This document shows positions 26,736 to 57,385 of a stretch of 64,000 nucleotides of DNA, one piece after another. Every line of letters begins with the position of its first letter. Position 1 is the first letter of the stretch. Source of the stretch: an uncultured Campylobacterales bacterium (GTDB taxonomy: Bacteria; Campylobacterota; Campylobacteria; Campylobacterales; Arcobacteraceae). The notes beneath the pieces are model-generated. The model saw only the letters and a list, made by a program, of their open reading frames with translations. It was not told the origin of the DNA and did not search any database. Made by a program: the position numbers and the translations under genes. The DNA is taken from positions 1 to 64,000 of the forward strand of contig CANLWY010000010.1 in the NCBI GenBank assembly GCA_947494995.1, in the 5' to 3' direction.

Positions 26736-27857
26736 TCAAAAATTAGAATCAATTATTCTAAAAAAATCTTTCCATGTTTCATTAAATTTTGCTTCATAAT
26801 TTTTAAATTTTCTTTTTTGAATATACTCATTGTATATACTATTAGCCCACAATGTTGGAGAATCAACATCAATAAGTATAGCACCTTCATACCCAGAAAC
26901 AACTTCCTGAGAATAAAATTCATTAGCACATATAATTGGTTTACCAAATGCCGCTGCTTCTAACAAAGGTAAGCCAAAAGTTTCTAAATAACTTGGGAAT
27001 ACAACTAAATCACAATATTTATAATAAGATAACATTACTTTATAATCAAGTCTACCTAAAAATATAAAATTATCTATCAAATTATTTTTATTAATCTTAT
27101 TTTTTAAATTATTATCTTCATTCTCATAAAATGTTAAATGTATTTTAATTTTCGAAATATCTGTATTATTGTTTTTTAAATGAATCAATGCATTAACAAT
27201 TTCTTCATTATTTTTATATATATGAGGTGCAGATGGAAGGAAAATATTATAGTAATTAGTATCAAAATAAGATTTTAATAAAATATATTTATGTAAATCT
27301 TTTAAAATAGGTCTTATTGGAAAAACTTTATCTTTGCTAATATTAAATTTTTTTATAAAAGATTTTCCAACCCATTCTGATTGAGTTACGATCATATGTA
27401 ATTTACCAATATAAGCTTTCATAAAAAAAGGATAGATATTTTTGTAAAACCACATTTTTCGCTCTTCTCTATTAAAAAAATTCCACTGCCTATCAATAAA
27501 TGGAATACATTGCATTACATAAGATATTTGAGGTATTTCATTATTATAAAAATTTACAGGAGTATTTTGTAGAGATATTATGAAATCAGGTCTTAAACTA
27601 TTTGTTTTAGACCAATTCCTCATCCCAATATAGTCCCAATAAATTCTACTTATATTTTTTTTATGATTAAAAAAAATATATTTTATATTTTTATTAGGAA
27701 ATTCTTGTTCTAAACTAGGGATAGACGAAAAAATGTAATATACATAAGTATTATCAGGCGGAATATTTTTAATAAATTCTTTTAATGTTATTAAGCCCCC
27801 ACCTGATACTAAGGCAACTGCATTTACAAAAATTACTTTGTTACTGGCTAACTGCAT
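26736..27857 (-). CDS. Glycosyltransferase family 4
   Basis: VIFVNAVALVSGGGLITLKEFI, CDLVVFPSYLETFGLPLLEAAAFGKPIICAN. Confidence 0.88.
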   Translation of the reverse strand: MQLASNKVIFVNAVALVSGGGLITLKEFIKNIPPDNTYVYYIFSSIPSLEQEFPNKNIKYIFFNHKKNISRIYWDYIGMRNWSKTNSLRPDFIISLQNTPVNFYNNEIPQISYVMQCIPFIDRQWNFFNREERKMWFYKNIYPFFMKAYIGKLHMIVTQSEWVGKSFIKKFNISKDKVFPIRPILKDLHKYILLKSYFDTNYYNIFLPSAPHIYKNNEEIVNALIHLKNNNTDISKIKIHLTFYENEDNNLKNKINKNNLIDNFIFLGRLDYKVMLSYYKYCDLVVFPSYLETFGLPLLEAAAFGKPIICANEFYSQEVVSGYEGAILIDVDSPTLWANSIYNEYIQKRKFKNYEAKFNETWKDFFRIIDSNF

Positions 27858-28947
27858 TTGTCAAGAACTCCATAGATTGTTTTCTTTCATAATCCAATTT
27901 TTTTATTACACTAATATAATCAATATTAATTTCCAAAGAATTAAATTCACTTTCACTTGATAAAATTCTATCTTTCAAACCAACTTTTGTTAATATACTT
28001 TCAAGTCTATTAGACAAATGCCCAGGAGAAATTGCAACAAAATTTTTTTCAAAATTTATCGAGAAGCATGTTCCATGATATGAATCAGTAATAATAAACT
28101 CTGCATTTAAATAAAGTTCTATAAAATCTTTTATTCCAGCATCTCTTACTTGTTCATCAACTCTTCCTAATGTTGAAAGGTTTTGATCAATTGAAATAAT
28201 TTTTAAGTTTAACTTACTAGAAAAATAATCTACAGCATTAGCAATAAGTTTAGTTTTAGGTACGCTATAAACTAAAATATATTTTTCTCTAGAAGATTTA
28301 CTTTTAAGCCCTAATAAATTTACCCATTTATTTTTAGATATTAATAATGTCGGATCTAAAACATGACTTATACTTTTATCTGGTAATAATCTTTGTAAAT
28401 AATTATAACCATCTTTTTCGCGAATTGAAATATTACTAAACTTTGATAATAATTCTTTTAGTTTTACTTCTTCACATTTAGAAAAAGAATAAGACCCGAA
28501 ACTTGAAGAATAAGAAATCTTTTTTGCATTAGAATTATAAAAATTTAAAAAATAAACTTCATCTATAATTGATTTTTTACTAACACATGCTGGATTCCAA
28601 ACTTGATCACTACCAGAAAGAACAATATCATAATCTAAAAGAATTTCATTTAATAATTCTTCATTATAATATTCTTTTGTAATATTTAAGTTTGAATCAA
28701 TAAAACTATTAAACTTCTTTATTAGTCTTCTTCGTGGCAAAATTCTAAATAAATCTTTTCCAACACTTAAGATTGATTTTAAACTTTTATTAAATCTTAA
28801 TAGCTTCATCTCACCATTAATGTGAGGATTATTGTAATTTAAGACTTTAACATCGCCATACTTAGATAATATTTCTTGTGTTGCAAAAGTCTGAAGCACA
28901 GCTCCATAATTAGTTACATTATATATAGTTACAATCAAAATTTTCAT
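27841..28947 (-). CDS. Polysaccharide pyruvyl transferase family protein
   Basis: ILIVTIYNVTNYGAVLQTFATQEIL, VLSGSDQVWNPAC, FIITDSYHGTCFSINF. Confidence 0.88.
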   Translation of the reverse strand: MKILIVTIYNVTNYGAVLQTFATQEILSKYGDVKVLNYNNPHINGEMKLLRFNKSLKSILSVGKDLFRILPRRRLIKKFNSFIDSNLNITKEYYNEELLNEILLDYDIVLSGSDQVWNPACVSKKSIIDEVYFLNFYNSNAKKISYSSSFGSYSFSKCEEVKLKELLSKFSNISIREKDGYNYLQRLLPDKSISHVLDPTLLISKNKWVNLLGLKSKSSREKYILVYSVPKTKLIANAVDYFSSKLNLKIISIDQNLSTLGRVDEQVRDAGIKDFIELYLNAEFIITDSYHGTCFSINFEKNFVAISPGHLSNRLESILTKVGLKDRILSSESEFNSLEINIDYISVIKKLDYERKQSMEFLTNAVSQ

Positions 28948-28948
28948 T

Positions 28949-29935
28949 TTAACCCTTATTTTCGTCTAGTGAAGTATAAAAACTTTCAAATGGTTTTCTT
29001 AAAGAAGCACATACTTTATTATTTTCATCAGGATAGCCTAATGCAATTACCATAATTATAGTATGCGACTCTTTTATCTTTATATATTGTCTTAATGCTT
29101 TATCTATTTCTGGCATTTTACTCCAATTAAGAGCGCAACTAGCAATGCCTATAGAATGAAAAGCATACATAATTGACATAGAAATTAATCCACCATCAAT
29201 CCAACATTGATAATATTCTTCTGGCGCGAAGAAAGACTTTAAATCTGTTGTAACTATAATTAAATTTGGAATATTATCTCCAAAAGGCTTATTTCCATCT
29301 TGATATTTTAATATTATCTTTTTTATACTTTCATCAGAACTGTGATACATATGCCATGCTTGCCTATTACAAACAGATGGCGTCTTCAATGCTAATTTAA
29401 TACCTCTTTTAATTTCCTCATCTGCTATGATTTCATTTTTAAATTCTCTTAATGTATACCTAGAATAAAAGAATAATTCTGGGTCTTCTAATTTTCCTTG
29501 ATAAAATTCATCTTTTTTCATATCAATAACACCATGAGAAACTTCATTATTAGAATTTAATTTACTTAATTCTAATTTAATTCTATTTACTCTATCATCG
29601 TTCCTATTCTCAGGTAAATTAATAAATTGCTCAATTACATTTTTCAATCCCTTTTCATGAAAATGTATATTACCATTGGACTTTTTCAAAAGTTCAATAC
29701 CTTCAAAAACACTACGCCACCCTGAATTAGGATTTCTATTCTTATAACTTAAGCTTTTTTCTATTCCATGATAAATTGCAACTGCTTTGTAACTTCTTTC
29801 AATATCATTGTTTAGATTTTCTTGCCACCCAGAATGAATTATAAATCTATTAAAATTGTAAAAATAAGCTTTTACAACCTTAAAAAATCTATATATACTT
29901 CTAACATAAGGCCTAATAAGCTTCCAGATTTTCAT
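28949..29935 (-). CDS. Nitroreductase-family protein with an N-terminal extension
   Basis: YSRYTLREF, ALKTPSVCNRQAWHMY, WIDGGLISMSIMYAFHSIGIASCALNW, ALGYPDE. Confidence 0.85.
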   Translation of the reverse strand: MKIWKLIRPYVRSIYRFFKVVKAYFYNFNRFIIHSGWQENLNNDIERSYKAVAIYHGIEKSLSYKNRNPNSGWRSVFEGIELLKKSNGNIHFHEKGLKNVIEQFINLPENRNDDRVNRIKLELSKLNSNNEVSHGVIDMKKDEFYQGKLEDPELFFYSRYTLREFKNEIIADEEIKRGIKLALKTPSVCNRQAWHMYHSSDESIKKIILKYQDGNKPFGDNIPNLIIVTTDLKSFFAPEEYYQCWIDGGLISMSIMYAFHSIGIASCALNWSKMPEIDKALRQYIKIKESHTIIMVIALGYPDENNKVCASLRKPFESFYTSLDENKG

Positions 29936-36332: not shown

Positions 36333-37265
36333 TTATTTAATCTCTTTTAATACATCTTTAGCTGTTATTAACTTCATACACTCATGATGTTTTAAAGGAC
36401 ATGCTCTTTTCATACAAGGTGCACACTCTAAGTTCTTTGTTACTATTTTTCCATTTGGATTCATCCACTGATTTGTTTCAGTAAATTTTGTTGGTCCAAA
36501 GATTGTAACTGTTGGAACTTTAAAAGCTGCTGCTACATGCATTGGTCCAGAATCATTTGTCACGAAAGAATCAAGACCCGCTATCTTTTCAATAAGTTCA
36601 GGAATTGATGTTTTTCCTGATAGGTTATTATAATTACTTACACTATTCTCTTTTAATATATTTTCAATATCTTCTGCAATATCAGTTTCACCTGGTCCTC
36701 CAAAAATAACAATATCGTGTGTTTTTGACATCTCAATTGCTACTTTTGCAAACTCTTCGGGATACCATCTTTTTGCACTTCCATAAGTAGCGCCTGGGTT
36801 TATACCAAAACTTTTATTTTCATATTTAAAAGGTGCAAAATAAAGTTTTAAATCTTTAGTTTCATTATTTAAATTTAAACTATGATTTATAAAATCATTA
36901 TATCTAATAGCTTGATGAATCTCTTTTTTAGTTAATCTTTTATATGAAAACTTTTGTCTTGCTTTTATAAAAAACATCATAAACTTTGAAGAAAAACTTC
37001 TTCTAAATGAAATAGCCAAATCAACCTGTCCTACTTCATTTGCTATTTTTACCAAATTTAAATATCTATTTCCATCTTTTTTAGTATTATCAACAATCAC
37101 TTTTTTTACATTTGGAATTTTTCCCAAAGCTTGACTTGAAACAAAAGAACCAAGCATTGTTATCTCACAATTAGGATACTCTTTAATAATATTTTCAATA
37201 GCAGGAGTTGTCATAATAGCATCTCCAAGCCAAGTAGGAATCTCTATAAATATTTTTTTAACCAT
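36333..37265 (-). CDS. waaF: Lipopolysaccharide heptosyltransferase II
   Basis: [66 protein letters not shown]. Confidence 0.93.
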
Positions 37266-38304
37266 TTATCATCTTTTTATACGCCTCAAAAGAAGGCATT
37301 TTTCTAATTTTTCCATCTCTATTATCAACTAAACCATATCCAGGTGCAATTAATTGATGCCAATAAACTCTTTTAATTTTTTTTGTTCTTTTTACTATCT
37401 CGTGATACTCTAACATAAATTTTTTATAATCATCTTCACTTACGCACTCATGTTCACTTGTTGGAGCATATGGAGCTGTATTTGAAATAGGCCAATTTAC
37501 TTCTGTAATATAAACTTCATTTGAACATTTATTTGATAATTTTGTCATTGAATAAAGTAAATCAATTTTATTTTTTGTATCAAAAAATTTATACTGAGTG
37601 TTATATGGACTTCCTCTTCTGTCTACATAAAGTAAGCTTGAATGTTTATCATATTTTACATCTTCAAAATTGAACAAAGCTCTTGCCGTATAATAGTATT
37701 CAAAGTCAATTACACTTGGACCAATAAGCTCCAAATTGACAAAAGAATTATCTCTTATATCTTGAACTATTTTATAAAATTTCAAGTATTCACCTATACT
37801 AAAAAAACCCCACTTGGCTCTATTTATTGTAGTTCCAACTTGAAATTCATTTAAAAAAGGTGAAAACTCTTTAAAAACTAAAGTTATATTTTTTTCTAAA
37901 AGCTTTTCATTTTCAATATGAGCTCTATCTTGCATTACGTTTAGCAAAATTTCAATTTCTCTGTCTTGTTCTTTAAACCTTTTTACAAACTCTATATATT
38001 CATCTATTCTTTCAATTTCCCAAAGAGGAAATCTTATAATTAAATATTTTATCCCAAGCTCTTTTACTAATTCTAACTGTTCTTCACCTTTATCAAGGTT
38101 TACTCCAATTCCATACTCTAACTTTTCATTTCCTCTAAAAAACTTCATTAAAATTATTGAAAGTGGTAAAACAAATAAAGAAGTAATTAAAAGCTTTACA
38201 TAATCAAAAAGATGCTTCTTTCGCATCTCTTTTTTATATTTTTTATCTCTTATTACATGGGGTTGGTCTGAATAATCATCCCAAATAAAAGGCTCTTTAT
38301 TCAT
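37258..38304 (-). CDS. Membrane-anchored protein with glycoside-hydrolase-like TIM-barrel character, function unknown
   Basis: TM segment (VKLLITSLFVLPLSIILMKFF) then domain with LVKELGIKYLIIRFPLWE, VYITEVNWPISNTAPYAP, RVYWHQLIAPGYGLVDN; fold assigned by eye. Confidence 0.55.
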   Translation of the reverse strand: MNKEPFIWDDYSDQPHVIRDKKYKKEMRKKHLFDYVKLLITSLFVLPLSIILMKFFRGNEKLEYGIGVNLDKGEEQLELVKELGIKYLIIRFPLWEIERIDEYIEFVKRFKEQDREIEILLNVMQDRAHIENEKLLEKNITLVFKEFSPFLNEFQVGTTINRAKWGFFSIGEYLKFYKIVQDIRDNSFVNLELIGPSVIDFEYYYTARALFNFEDVKYDKHSSLLYVDRRGSPYNTQYKFFDTKNKIDLLYSMTKLSNKCSNEVYITEVNWPISNTAPYAPTSEHECVSEDDYKKFMLEYHEIVKRTKKIKRVYWHQLIAPGYGLVDNRDGKIRKMPSFEAYKKMING

Positions 38305-38307
38305 ATT

Positions 38308-38916
38308 TTAAAGCCTTGTAAAAGGACGTTTGCCAAGAGCAGCTCTCTTTACATCCTTTTCATACATTTTCATAAACTTTTCCCACTGTCTTTTGATTTT
38401 ATATTTGGTATATGCTTTTGACATTTTGTAAAAAACAAACTTCATACCTGTTCTTTTTGCTCCAAGACCATCGACGATTATTAGTTTATATGAACCTTCA
38501 CTAATTTTAGGACAGAAAATATTTGTAAGACTTGTATCAACAAAAAGTATCAAGTTTTTTTCTAAATACTCTTTTAACTCATTTATTAAAATCTCTTGTT
38601 CTTTTAAAGGTATCAACTTATTAGCCAAATAGTATCTAAAACTTTTACTTGGCTCTCCATCATAATCAAGAACCCTATCAAAAACTAAGCCTTTCCCCAA
38701 GTTCGTTTTTACATACCCATAACAATCAGTAACAAAAGATAAATCAACACCTTTTCTTTTTATATATTTCATATATGAATATTCTAATTTATTTTGATTA
38801 TTGTGAGTACCTTCTTTATGTAGTACTTTAATTACTTTTGTTTCATCATCAGGATGAATATAACAATCCCTCTCTCCACCTTTTGCAATAAGTAAACTCT
38901 CACCTAAAATAATCAT
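38308..38916 (-). CDS. YrbL-family kinase-like protein (copy 1)
   Basis: LIAKGGERDCYIHPDDETKVIKVLHKEG, VFDRVLDYDGEPSKSFRYYL, LIIVDGLGAKR. Confidence 0.85.
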   Translation of the reverse strand: MIILGESLLIAKGGERDCYIHPDDETKVIKVLHKEGTHNNQNKLEYSYMKYIKRKGVDLSFVTDCYGYVKTNLGKGLVFDRVLDYDGEPSKSFRYYLANKLIPLKEQEILINELKEYLEKNLILFVDTSLTNIFCPKISEGSYKLIIVDGLGAKRTGMKFVFYKMSKAYTKYKIKRQWEKFMKMYEKDVKRAALGKRPFTRL

Positions 38917-39848
38917 TTACTCTCCATTACATTGTTTAAAGTATGATTGAAGAAAAATTTACACTTTTCAATTTCTAACCCAGTATTTATATAAGTATAT
39001 ACAAAAGATGGTTTTTCAAGATAGATTTCAAAGTTATAGTTTCTGTAAGCTTCAATATCTTCTTTTGTCAATTCATCTTTTCTAGTTAAAATCACTTCCG
39101 CTTTTGCATCTAGATGAACTTTCCAATATACTCTTGGAATAAAAAGTAAAAGAGTTTTCCAATTCTCTCTAAGAATAGTTTTTTTATCTAAAAAAGAGAT
39201 GTTTTCGAGTAAATAATCATTGAAAAACCTATCTAAAAAAACTGTTTTATTTTTGAACTTTGAAATAAAAATCAAATATGGATAATAGATTATTCCTGCA
39301 ATTAAAACTAATAAATAGTGAATATCATCATATTGGTCTTTTTCAGGTTTTCGTCCTAATTTTTTCTTTAATAAATACCTATTTAAAGGATATAAAATAT
39401 TATAAAGTACAGACCTTCTTACTATTTTTTTAAACCTTTTATAAACAATTTCTTTCTTATTTATATCAAGTGCAGAAGTTAAAAGTGTAGTCTTTCCAAC
39501 TCCATCAGGACCAACTATTGGAAAAATTTTTAATTTTTTATACCTTTCAATACTTTCTTTATGTTTCAACTGTTCTTTTATTATCTTTTGTTCATATTTA
39601 ACTTTAATAAAAATTGTTTTAATATCTAAAGAAAAAAGAAGCTCTAACTTTAAAAAATCATACTCTTCTTTTATGATATTAAAACAAATTTTATTCTCAG
39701 AACACAAGTCAAAAACTACTTTTAACAAATTATTTAATTCAAAACTCTTAATAGATAGGCTATCATCTTCTAAGATAGCTAGCTTTAGCTTTTTATCCAA
39801 TGCCTTTTTATTTAGTTCATCAAAAAACACTTCTATACTATTTATCAT
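38913..39848 (-). CDS. P-loop protein, dTMP-kinase-like, with a novel N-terminal domain
   Basis: FPIVGPDGVGKTTLLTSAL Walker A; KTVFLDRFFNDYLLEN DR-type motif; C-terminal KAEVILTRKDELTKEDIEAYRNYN. Confidence 0.75.
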   Translation of the reverse strand: MINSIEVFFDELNKKALDKKLKLAILEDDSLSIKSFELNNLLKVVFDLCSENKICFNIIKEEYDFLKLELLFSLDIKTIFIKVKYEQKIIKEQLKHKESIERYKKLKIFPIVGPDGVGKTTLLTSALDINKKEIVYKRFKKIVRRSVLYNILYPLNRYLLKKKLGRKPEKDQYDDIHYLLVLIAGIIYYPYLIFISKFKNKTVFLDRFFNDYLLENISFLDKKTILRENWKTLLLFIPRVYWKVHLDAKAEVILTRKDELTKEDIEAYRNYNFEIYLEKPSFVYTYINTGLEIEKCKFFFNHTLNNVMESK

Positions 39849-40773
39849 CTAATAAACCTAATAAACACTTTTCAATCTTTATATACTCTTCTCGTGTATA
39901 AGAAGAATTCAACATAAAATTGTTTTGATTTTTCTCTTCACTTATTGTTGCCCATCTTTTTGAACTAGCAAATAGACTGTCTCCAAAAAATGAAATAGTT
40001 TTTGTATTAACTGCACCAGCAAGATGCATAGGTCCTGTTGAAGTACTAACAAAAAGATAAGATGCCGCTAAATAATTTGTAAACTCCAATAAAGACATCT
40101 TAGAATCTAAAAGTTCAATCTTTTCTTTTTCGCCCTCTTCTAGTTTTGAAGAGATATACTCTTTTGAAGAACTATCATCTGGACCAAAAGTAAATACAAC
40201 CTTATATGAAGTATTAGCTGCTTTTTTTGCTAAAGAGATATAATCATCTAAAGATAAATTCCCATCACTACTTCCTCCAAAACCAGGATGAAAAACAACT
40301 CTTTTTTCTTTTTCTATTTTAATATTAATTAATGGTTTTTCAAAATCAAGTTTTATATCTGGAAATAAAGCCAAGGCTAAATCCAAATTATACTGCCATT
40401 CAGTTTTTTCAACTCTGCTTCTTCTCTGCTTTACTCTTTTATTAAAAAATATTTGGGCTATTTTTGTTGCAGGTCCTACTCTTTTTTTTATTCTACTTTT
40501 AAAAAGAAGTTTTCCTAAATTTGTATCAATATAAGCACTAATACTTGCATCAAACTTCTTTTCTTTTATATTTTGTAAAGTTAAATATAAATTCTCTTTA
40601 TCATATAAAATTACATCATCAATAAAAGGCATTTTCTTTGCTAAATCAAAATTTATTTTACTAACCAAAGCTGTAAGTTTTGTATCAGGGTATTGCTCTT
40701 TTATAGCTTTAAAAAGAGGAAGAGTTACGACAAAATCACCAATCTTGTCATGTCTAGTAATTAGTAAATTCAT
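39838..40773 (-). CDS. Glycosyltransferase family 9 (heptosyltransferase-like)
   Basis: LITRHDKIGDFVVTLPLFKAI, VVFHPGFGGSSDGNLS, STSTGPMHLAGAVNTKTISFFG. Confidence 0.9.
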   Translation of the reverse strand: MNLLITRHDKIGDFVVTLPLFKAIKEQYPDTKLTALVSKINFDLAKKMPFIDDVILYDKENLYLTLQNIKEKKFDASISAYIDTNLGKLLFKSRIKKRVGPATKIAQIFFNKRVKQRRSRVEKTEWQYNLDLALALFPDIKLDFEKPLINIKIEKEKRVVFHPGFGGSSDGNLSLDDYISLAKKAANTSYKVVFTFGPDDSSSKEYISSKLEEGEKEKIELLDSKMSLLEFTNYLAASYLFVSTSTGPMHLAGAVNTKTISFFGDSLFASSKRWATISEEKNQNNFMLNSSYTREEYIKIEKCLLGLLDDK

Positions 40774-41519
40774 TACTTCTTACCTCTTATTTTTCGTTTA
40801 AACTCCACAAAACCTTTTAGTTTTTTATCGCTCTTTTGTAAAATTTCAATTGCTTTTTGTTCTTCTACATTTGCTAGTTTTGCATATGTTGAAGCAATAA
40901 CTAAAATATCATCTTCATCCAACCATAACTTTGCAAAATTATCAAGTCCAGTTTCTAAATCAATCTCTTTAAACTCCATTCTATTTATATCTACAACAGA
41001 GAATTCATATTTGTTATCTTTTATAGAAACTAAAGTATTACCTGCTGAAAAATCTTTATGATAAACTCCATTTTTATGCAAAGTAAAAGTAAACTTTACA
41101 AACTGTTTAATAATATCTTCTCTATTTTCTAAAGATTTATTCCTAAGAGGTTCTCTAATCGTAAACTTATAATCAAACTTTTTTGCAATAAAAAAACTCT
41201 CTTTAAATAATCCACTTTTAAAAAACTCTATATAACCTATTGGTTCAGGTGTATTAAGACCAAGATTTCTAAGTTTTACTGCATTGTTATAAGATTTTTT
41301 TGCCTTCGAATCTCTAAAATAAGCATATACTATTTGATTTAAAACATTTGGAACTTTAAACGCTTTTACAACAGTTCTAATCCCTCTATACTCAATAACT
41401 TTTAGTTCATTTCTAGCTTTATGTATAGTTTCATTATTCTCTTTAAAAAACTCAGGTATATTTATCAAAAACTCTTTTATGTTTTTATATCTATCATTTA
41501 GTTCAAACTTGAAACTCAA
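40773..41519 (-). CDS. InaA/Kdo-kinase-like LPS kinase
   Basis: VYHKDFSAGNTLVSIKDNKYEFSVVDINRMEF (HxDxxxxN...VDxN kinase pattern). Confidence 0.85.
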   Translation of the reverse strand: MSFKFELNDRYKNIKEFLINIPEFFKENNETIHKARNELKVIEYRGIRTVVKAFKVPNVLNQIVYAYFRDSKAKKSYNNAVKLRNLGLNTPEPIGYIEFFKSGLFKESFFIAKKFDYKFTIREPLRNKSLENREDIIKQFVKFTFTLHKNGVYHKDFSAGNTLVSIKDNKYEFSVVDINRMEFKEIDLETGLDNFAKLWLDEDDILVIASTYAKLANVEEQKAIEILQKSDKKLKGFVEFKRKIRGKK

Positions 41520-42673
41520 TTCTTCCCTTTACTTTCAAAAATTTCAAAAACTTTTTCCCACATTTTTTCACTCTCTTCTTTTAAATAACTTGATCTCTCT
41601 TCTAACTTAGAAATTAACTTATTCTTACTATCTTCATTTATTAAAATATCTATTTTCTTATGAATATCTTCAGAAGATGAATCTAGATTTAAAATCCCAT
41701 CTTCAAAATCATAATCTTTAAAAAGCATTTGATATTTATGACTCCAACTTGTTCCTAAAGCAGGTGTAGCTTGACTAAGAGCACTTACTAAACTATGAAA
41801 CCTACTTCCAATTACTCCTGAAGATTGATTTAAAATACCCTTTACTTTTAAAGGGTCTTCTTCTTTAAAAATATTAATACCTTCTACTCTTTTAGATATT
41901 TCATTTGCTAAATCAAAATCTTTTTTACCCTCATGTACTAAAATAAAAGGTTTTTTACCTTTTAACCTTAAATACTTAATTGATTCTTCGATAAGTGACA
42001 AGTACTTATTATCCTCATTTTCAATCCAACTTTTACTCACCATTTTATAATTAGGGATAATACAAAAATCATTGTTTTCAAAATCAAAATCAACTATTTT
42101 TGAAGCTTTTACAAGGTTTGTAAAATCTGGACTATTATAAATTTTTTTCTTTTCATTTACAATCGAGGTTAAATATTCATAAGAAATTTCTTCCCTTGCA
42201 AATATTAAATCACAATTTTCAACAAGCCCTCTCATACTATTTTTTATCTCTTCATTTTTAAAAGGCCCAAAAGCTTGAGGAAGAAGTATAATTTTTGAAT
42301 TATTCTTTTTCCATTTTTCTGTTAGCTTTAATAACTTATTTGTATTTTTAACACCCCATTGATCTCCATGGGCAAAGCCTGATGCATCAAGAACAATATC
42401 CACATCTTTACTTCTTACTAAACCATACATTTTTCTTCGTTTTTTAGGAATTAGTGAGACAAAAAAATCCCCTATATCAAGACCTGCTTTTTCATATGTT
42501 ACCTTCTGAAGGAGACCTAAACTTGCTCTTTTTTCATAAGGTGAGACATTTAAACTTGGTGCCATAACAAACTTAACATCTGGGTATTTTGATTTAACTT
42601 TTTGCAAAACAGCATGAAGCATAAGTTCAGCTCCTTTATTAACAAAACCTACACCTCTAATTTCTACAATCAT
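41516..42673 (-). CDS. Polysaccharide pyruvyl transferase family protein
   Basis: VEIRGVGFVNKGAELMLHAVLQKV, ILLPQAFGPFKN, GVIGSRFHSLVSALSQATPALGTSWSHKY. Confidence 0.85.
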   Translation of the reverse strand: MIVEIRGVGFVNKGAELMLHAVLQKVKSKYPDVKFVMAPSLNVSPYEKRASLGLLQKVTYEKAGLDIGDFFVSLIPKKRRKMYGLVRSKDVDIVLDASGFAHGDQWGVKNTNKLLKLTEKWKKNNSKIILLPQAFGPFKNEEIKNSMRGLVENCDLIFAREEISYEYLTSIVNEKKKIYNSPDFTNLVKASKIVDFDFENNDFCIIPNYKMVSKSWIENEDNKYLSLIEESIKYLRLKGKKPFILVHEGKKDFDLANEISKRVEGINIFKEEDPLKVKGILNQSSGVIGSRFHSLVSALSQATPALGTSWSHKYQMLFKDYDFEDGILNLDSSSEDIHKKIDILINEDSKNKLISKLEERSSYLKEESEKMWEKVFEIFESKGKN

Positions 42674-43968
42674 TTTTTACCTTTAAAAAAATTATTTATT
42701 CTTGAAAAAACAGTTTTTTTCTTTTTTCTATTATCAAAATAGTTATTTGCTTCTTTTATAAGCTCTTCTTCTGAATCATATTTATCAATTCTAATAGAGT
42801 GAGAAATTCTTTTTTTCGCATTCTCAATATCTTCTTTTGATGCTTCAATTGAATATTCAAATACTTCTTTTGGATAAGTAGGTATAGTATTACCTAACTC
42901 TTCCCATGCTTTAATATTTGCATTAAACTTCTTTCTTTTTAATTCAATTCCTTGACCTGATACTGCCTGTTCTAATGAAGCCTCTCTTAATTCTATAGCC
43001 TTAGCAGTTCTAGCACCATTTACAATATCTTTTCCTAAAGCTGTTCTAATTAAAACTAAACTTTCACCATTTTCTTTATCAACACCCTCAACACCATGAG
43101 GATCACCTAAAACAATATCAGAATAAACATTCATCTTATCAAAACAGAGCATACAGCGTGAAGGAGTAAAAAAGTCTTTCATGTTTTTTCTATTCTTCTT
43201 ATCCATAATTCTAAGATTACCCTCTTCATAAAAAGAGATATCTCCAGGATAAGAGGTATTAGAAGTATCTCTGAAAACAAACTTTTCAACCTTTTTAGAT
43301 GTTACTCTTTGAGTAAAATAGTTTACAGCACTGTATAACATCACCCTATCACAGATAAGCCCTATTTTGATTAACTTATCATTTAGCTTCTTTTTAATTT
43401 TCATTAAATTTTCTAAACCATGAAAATGACAAGAAAGACCTACAACTGCAACTTTTCCTTCAATTTCTAAAATCTCTGGAACCAAAGAAGACAAATTTGT
43501 TGGGACGTATTTAGACTTTTGTGATTTCATTAACTCTTTTGAATCTTTTATTATCTTAGCTTCAGATTTCAAAGAAGTATCATTCATCTGGGTAACTACT
43601 ACTGCACTTACAATCTTTTCATCCAATAAATACTTCAAAATTGCTGTCGTTACTCCACCACTTTGAGAATTTAAATATATACTCTCATCAGAAGCTTTAC
43701 CTACAAGACAACTTGTAATTTCACCAATAAAAGGATCAAACTTTGTTTTTTCAATAAGTTTTTTACTAAAATGATCTCCTGGACAAACATCAAAACATAA
43801 ACCACAATTAGTACATGCATCATAATCTATTTTTGGGAAAAAATATCCAGCAGTTGATTGTTTATAAGAGATACAATCATGTCCACATGAAGAAAAGCAT
43901 GAACCACAACTATGACATAAATAGTTATCAACAACTTCTGTAATATCTCTTTTTATTTTTTTAGACAA
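42670..43968 (-). CDS. FrhB-like (coenzyme F420 hydrogenase/dehydrogenase beta-subunit family) Fe-S protein
   Basis: Two ferredoxin-type clusters (CHSCGSCFSSCGHDC; CTNCGLCFDVCP), SQSGGVTTAILKYLLDEKIVSAVVV, SDIVLGDPHGVEG. Confidence 0.88.
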   Translation of the reverse strand: MSKKIKRDITEVVDNYLCHSCGSCFSSCGHDCISYKQSTAGYFFPKIDYDACTNCGLCFDVCPGDHFSKKLIEKTKFDPFIGEITSCLVGKASDESIYLNSQSGGVTTAILKYLLDEKIVSAVVVTQMNDTSLKSEAKIIKDSKELMKSQKSKYVPTNLSSLVPEILEIEGKVAVVGLSCHFHGLENLMKIKKKLNDKLIKIGLICDRVMLYSAVNYFTQRVTSKKVEKFVFRDTSNTSYPGDISFYEEGNLRIMDKKNRKNMKDFFTPSRCMLCFDKMNVYSDIVLGDPHGVEGVDKENGESLVLIRTALGKDIVNGARTAKAIELREASLEQAVSGQGIELKRKKFNANIKAWEELGNTIPTYPKEVFEYSIEASKEDIENAKKRISHSIRIDKYDSEEELIKEANNYFDNRKKKKTVFSRINNFFKGKK

Positions 43969-44095: not shown

Positions 44096-45733
44096 ATGAA
44101 AGACTTTTTATCAAAACTTGGTTTTAATATCTTTTTAGCATTAATAATAACCTTACTATTTGTTTGTGTTGAACAGATTTATAGAGTTTACAATGACATT
44201 TTATCTTTTAACTTAAATCCAAAGAGTTTTTTTGAACAATTTATTATAAATCTACTTATCGTTTCTATTGTAAAAACAAGAGCTGTATTTATCTCTTTTG
44301 TTTTAATTGCAACTTTTGTATGGTTCCAAATACTTCACTTTGCATATTTTGGAACATGGATTTTTCCTCTTGAATATCTACTATTCTTCACTAAATTTCA
44401 AGAAACTTATGATACCTTTAGAACAGTAGCAGATATTGGAATTATTCCAACAATCATGACTATTGTACTTCTTATTTCTATTTACTTCTTATTAAAAAAC
44501 AGTGATGAAAAAAGGCTAAAAGTTCCTTTCTTATCATTTGTATTAATAGCTTTTATTATCTTTGTTCCTTTAAGAGTTTATATAAAAGATTCTAAAAAAG
44601 GTCATAGACCAAATGTAGAATACTATCCTATTAAAAACACAGTAACAAACGTAGGATATTTACTTGGAAATATTATGCCTAAAAAAATTGCCGGGAATAG
44701 TGGTTTAGAACAACCTATTTCCCCAACACCTGAGCTTTTAACAAACAATCCGGATATAAATGTAATTATGATTATGGGAGAATCACTAAATAGAAACTTT
44801 ATGTCTTTATATGACTATAAAATCAAAACTACTCCTTTTTTGGATTCACTTAAAAATGATGAAAACTTCATTTATAAAAAAGGGATTGCCTCTGGAGTTG
44901 TGACAGATGTTGCAGTTCCTTCATTTTTTAATATTATTAAAAGACCTGATGGAGTTCCTCAAATAATTTCAACAAATACATGTCTATTTAAAATGGCTAA
45001 AAATAATGGTTTTCAAACATATTTTTATAGCTCACAAGCACAAGATCAACTTGCACAACTTAAAAGTTATATTTGTACAAAATGGATTGATGATTATGTA
45101 GATGGAACAACGGTAACAAAAGATATTGATAAGCCAGCATTAGACAAATTCTTATTAGATAAAATCGAAGATGTAGACTTCTCAAAACCAAGTTTTATTG
45201 CGATGCAACAAAGAGCATCACACACTCCCTTTATTGATACTTTTCCAAAAGAGTTTGAAAAATTTAATAAAGAAAATATAAATGATAAAACAATAAGTCA
45301 AAATACAATTGATTACGCAAACTCTATTGCATATACAGATTACATTATCTCTGAGTTAGTTAGAAAAGTAAAAGCAAAAACTACTAGACCTACTTATTTC
45401 ATCTTTACATCTGATCATGCTTCAAATGTAGGAGATCCAAATAGACAAGGTCATGGAAGATTGAATTATGATGCAGTATATCAAGTACCATTTTTAGTTT
45501 ATGGAATAAATGGAGCAAAACCACTAAAAGAAAAGTTCTCAAATTTTGAGTTTATGTCACACTATCAAATGGCAAATGTTGTTAGCCATGTTATAGGCTA
45601 TAAAGAAAAATATGAACACTTTAATATGAGAGAAGACTATTTTGTATGTGATTCAGATATATCTGGTCTTTCAGGGATTTTAAAAATATCTTTTGATGAA
45701 AATAGTAATCAAACGAAAACATTAATAGAATAA
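44096..45733 (+). CDS. Phosphoethanolamine transferase, EptA/EptC-like sulfatase-fold protein
   Basis: N-terminal TMs; VIMIMGESLNRNFMSLYDYKIKTTPFL; FTSDHASNVGDPNRQGHGRLNYDAVYQVPFLVYG. Confidence 0.88.
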   Translation: MKDFLSKLGFNIFLALIITLLFVCVEQIYRVYNDILSFNLNPKSFFEQFIINLLIVSIVKTRAVFISFVLIATFVWFQILHFAYFGTWIFPLEYLLFFTKFQETYDTFRTVADIGIIPTIMTIVLLISIYFLLKNSDEKRLKVPFLSFVLIAFIIFVPLRVYIKDSKKGHRPNVEYYPIKNTVTNVGYLLGNIMPKKIAGNSGLEQPISPTPELLTNNPDINVIMIMGESLNRNFMSLYDYKIKTTPFLDSLKNDENFIYKKGIASGVVTDVAVPSFFNIIKRPDGVPQIISTNTCLFKMAKNNGFQTYFYSSQAQDQLAQLKSYICTKWIDDYVDGTTVTKDIDKPALDKFLLDKIEDVDFSKPSFIAMQQRASHTPFIDTFPKEFEKFNKENINDKTISQNTIDYANSIAYTDYIISELVRKVKAKTTRPTYFIFTSDHASNVGDPNRQGHGRLNYDAVYQVPFLVYGINGAKPLKEKFSNFEFMSHYQMANVVSHVIGYKEKYEHFNMREDYFVCDSDISGLSGILKISFDENSNQTKTLIE

Positions 45734-46297
45734 TTAAGTTTGTAAGTACTTCCTTACAAACTTCTCCCATCTTCTACTAATTCTTCCTCTTGCAAAATAT
45801 GGAATTTTATTTGGTAAAGTAAAGTGAGAAACATCTCCTAATCCATCAATTAGTACTAAATCAAAATCTGTTTCACTATTTTTTCTAAGTAAAATATTTT
45901 TAGGCATCATTCCATAATTGAAGATAATACAATTATCTATAAAATATTGTCTGTACTCTTCAAGCTCTTTTTGATAAGTTTCTACACTATTTTCTTTTAA
46001 ATAATGAGCAAAGCTCTTTGAAACTTCTCCATCATAATCTCTTATAAGTTCAATTACAAAGCCATCACCTTTATTTGTCTTAACTTCTCCATAGAACTTA
46101 GGAAGATGTTTAAAGTTGTCCATACCTCTTTTTTCTAATTGCTTATAATAAGAAATCTCTTTTATTGATTGTTTACTCTCTTCCCTTTGGTTTCCTTCGT
46201 AAGTTACCTTTACAGTCTTATTTGAATCTTCAGGATGAAGGTAAATTGCTCTTTCATTACCTTTTGCTATAAAGTCTTCATCTTTTAGAATTAACAC
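45734..46297 (-). CDS. YrbL-family kinase-like protein (copy 2)
   Basis: FIAKGNERAIYLHPEDSNKTVKV, IELIRDYDGEVSKSFAHYL, LVLIDGLGDVS. Confidence 0.85.
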   Translation of the reverse strand: MLILKDEDFIAKGNERAIYLHPEDSNKTVKVTYEGNQREESKQSIKEISYYKQLEKRGMDNFKHLPKFYGEVKTNKGDGFVIELIRDYDGEVSKSFAHYLKENSVETYQKELEEYRQYFIDNCIIFNYGMMPKNILLRKNSETDFDLVLIDGLGDVSHFTLPNKIPYFARGRISRRWEKFVRKYLQT

Positions 46298-48221: not shown

Positions 48222-49292
48222 ATGAAACAAAAAACTGCAATTATTTGTCTATCTAGAGTAAATGGTGGAATGGAATTAGCCTCTGTTAAATTAGCAAGAC
48301 TATTAAGTACAGATGTAGAAGTTGAGTTTATTGCTAGAGATAATAGTTATATAGTAAATAAAAAAGAGCATTTTGATGGATATAAAATCAAAGTACATGA
48401 AGTAAGCTTTTCTAGTAACTTAAGCCTTAAACTAATAAAAAGTGTGAGAGAGATATTAATAGAAAGAGAGATAAAAAATATAATCTTTCTTGGTGCTTCA
48501 GAGATGAAATCTTTATATTTTGCAACACTGGGTTTAAATATAAACTTTATTATTAGACAAGGTTCTAAAAAAACTACTTCAAAAAAAGACATCTTTCACA
48601 AACTATTCTACTCTAATGTAAACTATTTTGTAGGTAACTGTGAATATATGAAGCAAAATATTATTGATATTTTACCAGTTCCCAAAGATGCAAAAGTAAA
48701 AAGAGTCTACTCATCATTAAGACTTGATAAAAATGTTTCATATAAAAAGTTTGATGGTAAAATCAACTTAGTTCATGTAGGTAGAGTTCACCCAGGGAAA
48801 GGACAATTTGATGCAATTAAAGCCTGCGATATTTTATATAAAAATGGGTTTAATTTTAATCTTAAGTTCTTAGGAGATATACAAGACAAAAACTACTATG
48901 AGACAATGAATAAATATCTTGAAACACTAGAATACAAATCAAATATAGAGTTTATAGGATATACAAGTGAGGTAAAAAAATATCTTCAAGAAAGTGATGT
49001 CTTTATTTTCCCTAGTTTAGGTGAAGGAATGAGTAATGCAATTATAGAATCTCTTGGCTTTGGACTTATTCCTATTATCTACAATGATACTTCATCGCCT
49101 GAGTTTAAGGAGCTTGGCTTCCATATACATTTAACAGACAAGAATACCATTGAAGAGTTGGGAAAAATAGTTTTAGAAGTGGCAAAAAATTTAGAAATTG
49201 AAAAAAATAAAGCAAAAGAGAATCATAAAAAAGCTTTAGAGGTTTTTGCCTTAGAAAGAGAACAAAAGGAATATTTAGAACTACTTATTTAA
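48222..49292 (+). CDS. Glycosyltransferase family 4
   Basis: VHVGRVHPGKGQFDAIKACDIL, SDVFIFPSLGEGMSNAIIESLGFGLIPI. Confidence 0.9.
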   Translation: MKQKTAIICLSRVNGGMELASVKLARLLSTDVEVEFIARDNSYIVNKKEHFDGYKIKVHEVSFSSNLSLKLIKSVREILIEREIKNIIFLGASEMKSLYFATLGLNINFIIRQGSKKTTSKKDIFHKLFYSNVNYFVGNCEYMKQNIIDILPVPKDAKVKRVYSSLRLDKNVSYKKFDGKINLVHVGRVHPGKGQFDAIKACDILYKNGFNFNLKFLGDIQDKNYYETMNKYLETLEYKSNIEFIGYTSEVKKYLQESDVFIFPSLGEGMSNAIIESLGFGLIPIIYNDTSSPEFKELGFHIHLTDKNTIEELGKIVLEVAKNLEIEKNKAKENHKKALEVFALEREQKEYLELLI

Positions 49293-49877
49293 TAAAGATA
49301 AAAAGTATTTGTTAAAAGAGTACTTCCTTGGTAATGAATCTTCAAACCGCTTCCATAATCTTTTTATTTTCTTTTGAGTAAAAAAAGATATATATTTAGA
49401 AAAAGGTAAGAAGTCATTATTTACAACCCCATCTATTAAAACTAACCTTGCACTCTTTTGATCAAGTTTCTGATACAACATGTTTTTAGTATTTAAGTCT
49501 TTAACAATAATACCTTCTTTTAAAGTATAACTTTTTAATTCATCTAAAAGTTTAATTGGATTGATTAAAGTTTTTGTCTTTTCATCTTTTTGTAAATAAT
49601 AAGATAAAGTCTTTGAAATATTTCCATCATAATCTTTTATTAAATCATAAACCTCACCTTTCCCTAATGAAGTCTCTACACTTCCATAATACTTTGCTAA
49701 AAGAGTCCAAGAAATATTTCTTTTTTCTAAAAACTTATAGTATTTAATCTCTTTAATGCTTTCAGAGTAATCATTTGAATGGGTAATTTTAATACACTTA
49801 GTATCATCATGAGGATGAATAAAAGCACTTCTATTTGTACCTTTTCCGACAGGCTTATTATTACTTAAATTAATCAT
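49281..49877 (-). CDS. YrbL-family kinase-like protein (copy 3)
   Basis: PVGKGTNRSAFIHPHDDTKCIKI, VYDLIKDYDGNISKTLSYYL, ARLVLIDGVVNN. Confidence 0.82.
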   Translation of the reverse strand: MINLSNNKPVGKGTNRSAFIHPHDDTKCIKITHSNDYSESIKEIKYYKFLEKRNISWTLLAKYYGSVETSLGKGEVYDLIKDYDGNISKTLSYYLQKDEKTKTLINPIKLLDELKSYTLKEGIIVKDLNTKNMLYQKLDQKSARLVLIDGVVNNDFLPFSKYISFFTQKKIKRLWKRFEDSLPRKYSFNKYFLSLLNK

Positions 49878-54337: not shown

Positions 54338-55126
54338 TTACTTGCCTTCTAAATTTTTAAGTGCAACAAATAGTTTAAAGAAAGATTCACCATCTCTACC
54401 TATAATTTTCTTCATAAAACTTTTTTGACTTAAACTGATTAAAAAAGAGATTCTATTTGCCAACTCTTTAAATTTTATATAAAAACTTTCATTTGAAGGA
54501 ACCAACTCAATATACCTTTTAATTACATACTCATAATCAACTTCAAAACTTGCTCTTGTTTTAGCTAAAGACAAAAGCAAAAGCAATAAATCTCTAAACT
54601 GTAATAGCTTTAAGTCAACACTTTCATTAAAACTATCTTCTAAATCTATTGTATAAATTCTTCCATCTTTATAAGTAAAATTTCTAGCTTGTGCTCCACC
54701 ATGGAACTCATTTGCATGGTGTATTTTTGCTAATTCATCTAAAATAAGATCGATAAAGTAATACATTTTTTCTTTGGAAATATCTCTTTTCCTAATATAA
54801 GAGTTAATCATTTTACCACCATCTTCTAATACAAAAAACTCACTATTTTTATATAAGATTTCAGGGGTATTTATACCCAATAATTTTAGTTTTGATATTT
54901 TATTAGTTTCATACTCTAAAGCTTCAAATTCTGTTTTCCTTTCAACTGGTAAAACTACTTCAAAAGAAAAAAGTTTATAAAAAAACTTATGAAAAATATT
55001 AGATTTTGTAGCCCTTGCCTTTTTCAGCCAATATCTTTTCCCCTTGTACTCAAAAGAGAATATCTCTTCACTGTTCTTTGAATATAATTCAAGAACTAGC
55101 TCTTCAAATGTTTTCTCTACGCCCAT
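54338..55126 (-). CDS. InaA/Kdo-kinase-like LPS kinase (second locus copy); start probably at 55126
   Basis: ANEFHGGAQARNFTYKDGRIYTIDLEDSF (HGGxxxxN...IDLED), VLEDGGKMINSYI. Confidence 0.8.
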   Translation of the reverse strand: MGVEKTFEELVLELYSKNSEEIFSFEYKGKRYWLKKARATKSNIFHKFFYKLFSFEVVLPVERKTEFEALEYETNKISKLKLLGINTPEILYKNSEFFVLEDGGKMINSYIRKRDISKEKMYYFIDLILDELAKIHHANEFHGGAQARNFTYKDGRIYTIDLEDSFNESVDLKLLQFRDLLLLLLSLAKTRASFEVDYEYVIKRYIELVPSNESFYIKFKELANRISFLISLSQKSFMKKIIGRDGESFFKLFVALKNLEGK

Positions 55127-55473
55127 ATTAAAATAATCACCCAAGTTGTAACATGAAGTCCAATACTAAACATAACAGCAGTTGAACCTATGTCCTTTGC
55201 AGTTTTTGCTAAAGGAGCATGTTCAGTTGTTACTAAATCAACTACATTTTCAATTGCTGAATTTACTAACTCTATTATTAATACTAAAATACCCGTTACT
55301 AGTAATATAAGTTTATACATTAAATCAACATCAATATATATAATTCCTGCAATAATAAAAACAGCGACAAAAAGCTCCAAACGAAAAGAACTTTCAGTTT
55401 TAAAGGCATGTTTTAAGCCATCAATGGCATATTGTGTATTTTTAAAAAGGTGATATTTTGGTTTATTATTCAT
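55117..55473 (-). CDS. dgkA: Diacylglycerol kinase
   Basis: AIDGLKHAFKTESSFRLELFV, ELVNSAIENVVDLVTTEHAPLAKTAKDIGSTAVM. Confidence 0.95.
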   Translation of the reverse strand: MNNKPKYHLFKNTQYAIDGLKHAFKTESSFRLELFVAVFIIAGIIYIDVDLMYKLILLVTGILVLIIELVNSAIENVVDLVTTEHAPLAKTAKDIGSTAVMFSIGLHVTTWVIILIWA

Positions 55474-55476
55474 TTT

Positions 55477-56385
55477 TTATTTTCTTTTATATAGGTTTTT
55501 ATAGTGTTTTTTCCATCTTTTGTGTTGCCAAAACCACTGCTGAGGAGTCTGTTCTATCTGTTTCTGAATAATATCTGCTTGAAGTTGAGTTAGCTCTTTT
55601 TCTTTATCTTCAGTTTTAAACTCAACGGTTGATGGATCTATTGCATCATATACTTTTATAGTATAATCTCTAAAATCATCCATTACTGCAAACAAAGGAA
55701 TTATTACTGCATCAAATTTTAAAGCAAGTCTTGCAGTAGCATCAGTTGCCATTACTTTTTTATCAAAGAAGTCTATTTCTACTCCATTTTTAGTATTCTG
55801 GTCAATTGCAACTGCAACAAAATGACCATTTTTAAAAGCTTTTAACATACCTTTTGCAGCTACTTTTTTTTCAAGCATTATAATATTATTTCTATCTCTT
55901 GCTTTAATATACATATCATTTATTAATGGATTATCCATTTTTCTATTTACAACTGCAAGAGTTCCATATTTTAACGCAGTATAAGGAATTGCTAATTCCC
56001 ACCCACCATAGTGAGCTGTTACAAATATGATTTTTCTATTATCTTTAATTGCATTTAGAATAACTTCCTCATTTTCTATTTTTGCTTTTGATAAAAGTTT
56101 TTCTTTTGAAATTGTTTGATTTTCTATAAACTCATACATATTAAAAAGTAGTGATTTATAAGAGTCTTGAATTATCTTCTCTTTTTCTTTGTCTGTGATT
56201 TTATCTTCATAAGCTAGATTTAAATTAACCTTAGCAATATGTCTATGTTCTTTATTAAAAATATAAATAATTTTAGCAGTTAAAATAAGTAATTTTTCAA
56301 GTAGAAACTTTGGGATTATAAGAAATAAAAATCTTAATAAAAGATATAAATAGTATATAAAATAGTCTTTAGCATTTGCTTTCAC
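55477..56385 (-). CDS. Lipid A biosynthesis acyltransferase (LpxL/HtrB/WaaM family)
   Basis: IFVTAHYGGWELA, AVAIDQNTKNGVEIDFFDKKVMATDATARLALKF, WFWQHKRWK. Confidence 0.92.
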   Translation of the reverse strand: MKANAKDYFIYYLYLLLRFLFLIIPKFLLEKLLILTAKIIYIFNKEHRHIAKVNLNLAYEDKITDKEKEKIIQDSYKSLLFNMYEFIENQTISKEKLLSKAKIENEEVILNAIKDNRKIIFVTAHYGGWELAIPYTALKYGTLAVVNRKMDNPLINDMYIKARDRNNIIMLEKKVAAKGMLKAFKNGHFVAVAIDQNTKNGVEIDFFDKKVMATDATARLALKFDAVIIPLFAVMDDFRDYTIKVYDAIDPSTVEFKTEDKEKELTQLQADIIQKQIEQTPQQWFWQHKRWKKHYKNLYKRK

Positions 56386-57385
56386 TTAATAATAGTCCTT
56401 CAATCATACTAACAATCTCTTTCTCATCAATTTCTTTAATTGAATCATCTTCTCTATTGAGTTTCAAAGGATTTACATTAGTATCTGATTCTATGATTTT
56501 ATTTGTATCTGTTTCATATGTATTCCTATATCCTGGAGTACATCCAAAAATTGTAATTGAAGGGATATTTAAAGCCCAAGCCATATGAGTTGGTCCAGTA
56601 TCATTTCCAATAACCAAATCACAATTTTTTACAACTGCTTTTAATGAGTTCAAATCTAACCTTGGTAAGACTATAGCTGAAGAGTTTAAAGCAATTTCAT
56701 CTGCTATTTCTTTCTCTTCCTCATTACCCCATGCAATTAAACAATTTTCATCTAAACAATTTATTATTTTAGCAAATTTCTCTTTAGAGTACATTTTTGA
56801 AGGCCAAGATGCCCCTATTATAAAAAGTATATTTTTCTTTGCACTTCTTAAATAGTTATATAAAATTCTTGGTTCATTTTCAAAATATAAAAAAGCTTCT
56901 TTTTTTTCAATATCTTCTTTTGATATATCTAAATCTAAAGCCCCACATATCACATCAATATTTCTTTCTATTACATTTTTCTCATATGCAGAGTCGATTT
57001 TTTTCTTATAAAAGAGTGATGCCGTACCTTCTCTTGTAGATTTCATTCCAAAACCTACTCTATTTTTACCTAAATATTTTGATACTATTGCTGATTTGAT
57101 TAAACCTTGGGCATCAATAACTAAATCATAATTATTGTTTGCATAATCTTTTAAAAGATTAACTTGTGCAGGGATATTCTTCTTATCAATTTTTATTGAT
57201 TTTAAATCTAATTCATAGATATTCTCAATATGAGGATTATGTTCCAAAATCTTTGAAAAAGCTTTTTCTACAAACCAATCAATACTTATAGAAGGATTAG
57301 ACTTTTTAAGAAACTGTAAAGCTACCATAGCATGGATTATATCACCCATTGCAGAGAGTTTAACAATTGCTATTCTCATTGACAA
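56369..57385 (-). CDS. waaC: Lipopolysaccharide heptosyltransferase I
   Basis: IAIVKLSAMGDIIHAMVALQFLK, VIDAQGLIKSAIVSKYLG, IGNDTGPTHMAWALNIPSITIFG. Confidence 0.93.
   Translation of the reverse strand: MSMRIAIVKLSAMGDIIHAMVALQFLKKSNPSISIDWFVEKAFSKILEHNPHIENIYELDLKSIKIDKKNIPAQVNLLKDYANNNYDLVIDAQGLIKSAIVSKYLGKNRVGFGMKSTREGTASLFYKKKIDSAYEKNVIERNIDVICGALDLDISKEDIEKKEAFLYFENEPRILYNYLRSAKKNILFIIGASWPSKMYSKEKFAKIINCLDENCLIAWGNEEEKEIADEIALNSSAIVLPRLDLNSLKAVVKNCDLVIGNDTGPTHMAWALNIPSITIFGCTPGYRNTYETDTNKIIESDTNVNPLKLNREDDSIKEIDEKEIVSMIEGLLLSESKC

Follow-up and report, generated by a model that had tools for sequence, protein, structure and literature searches.

In the window analyzed here (64,000 nt, positions 1 to 64,000 of contig CANLWY010000010.1 from an uncultured Campylobacterales bacterium, assembly GCA_947494995.1), a close-packed run of genes on the minus strand lies within a locus for the lipopolysaccharide (LPS) core. 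The genome is of the Arcobacteraceae type, and a close relative in our genome collection is a Halarcobacter metagenome-assembled genome. The initial annotation had singled out six overlapping genes at 38308–43968 as a candidate new system. The six open reading frames (ORFs) are real, contain no internal stops, and overlap in transcription order by 4, 4, 1, 11, and 4 nt, with plausible ribosome-binding sites upstream of most of them. Beyond 38308, the run continues after a gap of 3 nt into a glycoside hydrolase (GH)-like gene (37258–38304), which overlaps waaF (36333–37265) by 8 nt, and only then follows a gap of 52 nt. The choice of six genes was thus arbitrary, and their proposed boundaries did not hold. 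The genes are, in order of transcription and followed by the divergent neighbor:

42670–43968, minus strand: FrhB/FdhB-like flavo-iron-sulfur reductase, 432 aa, TTG start, accessory module A (Pfam FrhB_FdhB_N/C and Fer4)
41516–42673, minus strand: PS_pyruv_trans (CsaB-like) transferase (pyruvyl transferase, PST), 385 aa, accessory module A (Pfam, 2.3e-32)
40773–41519, minus strand: InaA/Kdo-kinase-like sugar kinase, 248 aa, conserved frame (Pfam Kdo, 1.6e-6)
39838–40773, minus strand: GT9 heptosyltransferase-like glycosyltransferase, 311 aa, conserved frame (Pfam, 1.3e-15)
38913–39848, minus strand: P-loop kinase-like protein, 311 aa, accessory module B (Walker A)
38308–38916, minus strand: YrbL1, small protein-kinase-fold protein, 202 aa, accessory module B (Pfam YrbL, 3.2e-46)
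37258–38304, minus strand: GH-A-clan-like TIM-barrel protein with a hydrophobic N-terminal helix, 348 aa, conserved frame (AlphaFold2 and Foldseek)
36333–37265, minus strand: WaaF, heptosyltransferase II, end of the conserved block (TIGR02195)
44096–45733, plus strand: EptA/CptA-like phosphoethanolamine transferase, divergent from the operon and 127 bp away (NCBIfam matches below cut-offs)

The run is bracketed by waaF, whose product scored 169 bits against TIGR02195 (cut-off 134.6), and by a waaC-like gene (56369–57385). The latter and an LpxL-like gene (55477–56385) were assigned by sequence inspection, and their homologues are neighbors in three loci of relatives (L073, L092, and L135). Genes for a core glycosyltransferase, a phosphoethanolamine transferase, and a lipid A acyltransferase were found inside the bracket, and the EptA/CptA-like gene is the divergent neighbor of the operon in several relatives too. 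The same waaC–waaF cluster, with genes annotated as eptA, yejM, and yrbL, is known from Arcobacter butzleri (PMC6477937). The bracket and this known cluster therefore indicate an LPS or lipooligosaccharide (LOS) core biosynthesis context, in agreement with the setting first proposed. The family assignments made initially for the FrhB-like protein with its two Fer4 motifs, the pyruvyl transferase, the InaA/Kdo-kinase-like protein, GT9, and YrbL were also supported by Pfam, and a comparison of the genes with defense-system models gave no meaningful match, only one weak match to a kinase. Elsewhere in the locus, a kinase-fold gene (54338–55144) with weak similarity to Bud32 and no Pfam match adjoins lipid A acyltransferase-like and diacylglycerol-kinase-like genes.

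About 45 loci from relatives were fetched and mapped. In approximately 35 of them, the InaA-like kinase gene, the GT9 gene, the GH-like gene, and waaF followed one another in this order, with optional genes on either side of GT9. The InaA-like kinase is present in 58 of 104 genomes of the family, and the GT9 gene adjoins it or lies near it, upstream of the GH-like gene and waaF, in most loci of relatives. The interval between the GT9 and GH-like genes differs among relatives: it may be empty, or it may contain a single yrbL gene, two of them, a P-loop gene followed by yrbL, or a fusion of the latter two. The gene content upstream of the InaA-like gene is also variable. The InaA-like protein matched PF06293 modestly (28.2 bits, gathering cut-off 21.3), and its catalytic loop HxDxxxxN (HKDFSAGN at residue 154) was retained in 42/42 homologues. 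This frame would extend the inner core and phosphorylate it. The GH-like protein had no Pfam match, and its AlphaFold2 model (predicted local distance difference test score, pLDDT, 78.7) is a TIM barrel for which Foldseek found GH26, GH39, and GH51 structures (best E-value 4.6e-7, template-modeling score about 0.5). The usual Asn-Glu acid/base site of clan A appears to read Asn-Arg in this protein (N161-R162, invariant in five homologues), while E268, within TEVN, is retained. Because Asn-Arg replaces Asn-Glu, as judged from the motif position, the GH-like protein may not be a simple hydrolase.

The P-loop gene was found in 15 sampled genomes and was associated with yrbL in all of them. YrbL is encoded directly downstream in nine genomes (G000, G003, G007, G012, G013, G023, G040, G043, and G075), and is fused to the C-terminus of the P-loop protein in the six others (G014, G027, G053, G135, G303, and G442; loci L022, L023, L024, L064, L108, and L109). 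In G051 (locus L135, 6283–7932), YrbL is instead fused N-terminally to the GH-like protein, giving a protein of 549 aa encoded directly upstream of waaF. The fusions thus run in both directions along the stretch, which is good evidence that the P-loop protein, YrbL, and the GH-like protein serve one step. We propose that the P-loop kinase and YrbL, acting as one unit, would phosphorylate a core sugar. The YrbL–GH fusion in one genome leads us to place the GH-like protein tentatively at that step as well.

The initial description of the P-loop protein as dTMP-kinase-like holds only loosely. The window protein displays a Walker A motif (GPDGVGKTT at residue 113), DRF at 206, and RKDEL at 256, and one distant homologue matched a thymidylate-kinase PHROG at 1.6e-4 across its kinase domain. 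However, the window protein had no significant match to any Pfam family, including the thymidylate kinase family PF02223, to which 1/13 members of its own family matched at 0.016. Its kinase domain showed no convincing similarity to Arcobacteraceae thymidylate kinases in a profile–profile alignment (probability 6%), a search of the profile against the sequences of solved structures returned generic Walker A matches only, and the genuine tmk gene is located elsewhere in the genome. In longer homologues (G075, G303, and G442), the N-terminal domain contains a GDYDF motif, typical of nucleotidyltransferase-like domains; the short N-terminal domain of the window protein aligns to it, with GDYDF lost.

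YrbL1 scored 157.8 bits against PF10707 (cut-off 31.5), and its catalytic-loop D127xxxxN and VDG motifs are retained. The genome (3.2 Mb) contains three yrbL genes in all (38308–38916, 45734–46297, and 49281–49877), and the three are located in this LPS locus. In the subfamily of the second gene, YrbL2 (45734–46297 and its homologues), the catalytic Asp is absent in 18/18 relatives although the family is conserved, which suggests a pseudokinase or an altered mechanism. At locus L140 (7444–8129), a yrbL gene is split into two ORFs and is probably broken. In E. coli and Shigella, yrbL is regulated by PhoP and its function is unknown (PMC5775216). This regulation and the YrbL2 paralogues devoid of the catalytic Asp could be taken to mean that the P-loop protein and YrbL regulate LPS assembly, for instance as a kinase/pseudokinase switch, rather than acting as sugar kinases. 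We consider this unlikely, as the P-loop-linked YrbL1 retains the catalytic Asp, Asn, and DxG, and sits among glycosyltransferases and a relative of Kdo kinases. The recurrent P-loop–YrbL and YrbL–GH fusions thus tie the YrbL family to LPS-core assembly. They are a clue that YrbL may work on LPS sugars and, found in six genomes and one genome, respectively, they provide a concrete lead for a family of unknown function. This lead calls for some caution, as YrbL is rare in the phylum (9/180 genomes above the cut-off) and, in some of these genomes, is encoded outside any recognizable LPS locus (L137 and L138).

The FrhB-like and PST genes showed a different distribution. Among the 104 family genomes, a close relative of the FrhB-like protein was found in only one, G135 (61% identity), which belongs to a second genus and is the only one of the 103 other family genomes to carry FrhB and PST at this position. 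The initial annotation had staked its proposal on the gene order being conserved in some relative, and the whole order indeed recurs in G135 (FrhB, PST, InaA, GT9, fused P-loop–YrbL, GH-like, WaaF). Nine further family genomes carry the InaA–GT9–P-loop–YrbL block but no FrhB–PST pair. In the sister genomes G027 and G053, the block is not accompanied by the pair. Outside the family, the closest pair was found in G447 (FrhB 49% identity, PST 340 bits), where it adjoins a flippase gene in an unrelated locus for polysaccharide synthesis. Of 13 FrhB loci across the phylum, 10 have a PST-family gene next to FrhB and the other three have one no more than about 4 kb away; a search of the plasmid collection for FrhB gave no match. 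This distribution indicates that the FrhB–PST pair forms an independent unit that recurs, though rarely.

Given that the pair is separable from the block, we reject the six genes as one conserved system: there is partial support for the initial "new system" proposal, but what recurs is a core locus of a known kind holding a frame and two separable modules. It is, for the same reasons, very improbable that the six genes encode a dedicated six-step pathway. The overlap at every junction and the recurrence of the full order in G135 would fit such a pathway, but the nine genomes with the block alone, the pair without the block in G447, and the continuation of the block into the GH-like gene and waaF do not. 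What is new here is the recurrent P-loop–YrbL and YrbL–GH fusions and the FrhB–PST pairing, not the six-gene unit.

These same distributions could also mean that FrhB and PST act on an O-antigen or another surface glycan, and that their place beside the InaA-like gene is a recombination accident in a variable locus. The pair is found in O-antigen-type loci with flippases (G447 and L117), it is missing from the core blocks of nearly all relatives, and the flank upstream of the InaA-like gene varies in gene content. However, the pair is translationally coupled to the InaA-like gene by a 4 nt overlap, and its placement is the same in the second genus, where the identities of FrhB and PST to the window proteins (61% and 72%) are similar to those of the flanking genes (60–75%). 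We therefore regard an action on another glycan as rather doubtful. In the O-antigen part of the window, a second PST-family gene (27841–28947), of a different subfamily that lacks one arginine of the phosphoenolpyruvate (PEP) site, adjoins a nitroreductase-family gene (28949–29935); this nitroreductase subfamily was found in 2/298 genomes, too rarely to show a parallel pairing.

The FrhB-like protein belongs to the FrhB/FdhB superfamily of flavo-iron-sulfur reductases: it contains the N and C domains and two Fer4 motifs (Pfam assignment at 1.6e-19 and 3.5e-23), and its homologues in the PDB include FrhB, Fsr, and 8riu_B (4e-21). Cysteines C18/21/24/28, C55/58/62, C180, C206, C272, and C275 are invariant in eight homologues, so that both ferredoxin clusters are kept, the last four residues belonging to the core. 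It is not FrhB proper (62.9 vs. 331.5 bits for TIGR03289), and no F420 ligase was found in the genome, although the methanogen and haloarchaeal controls were positive. The protein thus probably uses another electron donor. PST matched PF04230 (113 bits, cut-off 25.3) but fell below the CsaB equivalog TIGR03609 (1.7e-17, 63.7 vs. 213.1 bits). Residues R160, R291, H293, and K313 are present, with the same H-to-K spacing of 20 as H308/K328 of CsaB, whose importance for PEP binding was shown by mutagenesis (PMC10435577); the equivalence to CsaB R148 is drawn from homologue alignment and spacing only.

Phosphorylation and pyruvylation, as initially proposed, are the natural reading of this gene set. 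PST would use PEP as the donor of a group placed on a core sugar. The FrhB-like protein, which is unlikely to use F420 here, may reduce the PST product or its precursor; the specific chemistry that we favor would follow a MurA/MurB-like logic leading to a 1-carboxyethyl (lactyl) ether. Such ethers occur in the Klebsiella capsules K22 and K37 and, less surely, K66. In a Klebsiella capsule survey (PMC4616057), pyruvyl-transferase genes are present in types K8, K22, K37, and K66 while pyruvate is absent, and one F420-hydrogenase-like gene and two nitroreductases are listed. This pattern would fit a transfer followed by a reduction. In the literature searched on pyruvylation, lactyl ethers, and E. 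coli O-antigens, there was no statement on the function of FrhB, nor was an enzyme for building lactyl-ether sugars described; the recurring FrhB–PST pair is a testable candidate for such a route in bacteria. Alternatively, PST could make an ordinary ketal pyruvate, with FrhB serving an unrelated purpose, such as the reduction of a keto-sugar intermediate, an enzyme disulfide, or a cluster. This is a real possibility, if short of an even chance, given that the PEP residues of CsaB are retained and that FrhB homologues reduce substrates as diverse as sulfite (Fsr) and hydroxymethyl-chlorophyll. On the other hand, every FrhB gene located in the phylum had a PST gene nearby, suggesting that the two contribute to one step.

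Taken together, we favor, with slightly better than even confidence, the explanation that the run is the distal part of an Arcobacteraceae waaC–waaF LPS-core operon, composed of a conserved frame and two separable modules with the roles proposed above. Assembly and phosphorylation of the heptose core are the most likely task of the operon, to which the accessory pair would contribute a PEP-derived group. The gene anatomy, the modularity, the fusions, and the retention of catalytic residues were observed directly, whereas we infer that the frame and the modules share one target glycan. Several points weigh against this explanation. To our knowledge, no core structure is available for this organism, so that the substrates named here are putative. 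Most other FrhB genes have a neighboring PST of a different subfamily, in which one PEP-site arginine is gone (SFH for RFH), and the link to the Klebsiella ethers is not established gene by gene. The AlphaFold2 model of the P-loop protein is poor (pLDDT 43, two homologues), and the kinase assignment is weak. It is improbable that two new LPS biochemistries occur here together, namely a P-loop/YrbL/GH-like set phosphorylating core sugars and a PST/FrhB route to lactyl ethers by PEP transfer and flavin reduction. If they did, this would be the first function for YrbL, a PhoP-regulated orphan in enterobacteria, and a MurA/MurB-like route built from unrelated proteins.

Among the closest known systems is the waaC–waaF LOS core locus of Arcobacter butzleri and A. 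thereius (PMC6477937), in which the same bracket of waaC, lpxL-like, yejM-like, eptA-like, glycosyltransferase, yrbL, and waaF genes is found; unlike the window, its figure legend names no FrhB, PST, or P-loop–YrbL module. With the LPS-core sugar kinases WaaP and KdkA (PF06293), the InaA-like protein shares HxDxxxxN and the Kdo-family match, but it falls far below the NCBIfam equivalog cut-offs (31.5 vs. 142 bits for KdkA), too low a score to assign its exact acceptor. The proposed chemistry resembles that of MurA and MurB, a PEP-derived transfer followed by flavin reduction to a lactyl ether, by analogy only: these protein families are unrelated to PST and FrhB, and a like chemistry here is a proposal. 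PST shares the fold family and the PEP-binding R, H, and K with the ketal pyruvyl transferases CsaB and WcaK (PF04230), but it scores 63.7 bits against a CsaB cut-off of 213 and is coupled to an FrhB-like reductase. The latter has the FrhB_FdhB_N/C core and two ferredoxin clusters in common with the flavo-iron-sulfur reductases FrhB, Fsr, and HCAR, and differs from them in its location in a polysaccharide locus of a genome without F420 ligase. Finally, YrbL1 shares the Pfam YrbL domain (158 bits) with YrbL of the PhoP regulon, and differs in that relatives encode YrbL as part of a fusion with either a P-loop kinase or a GH-like protein.

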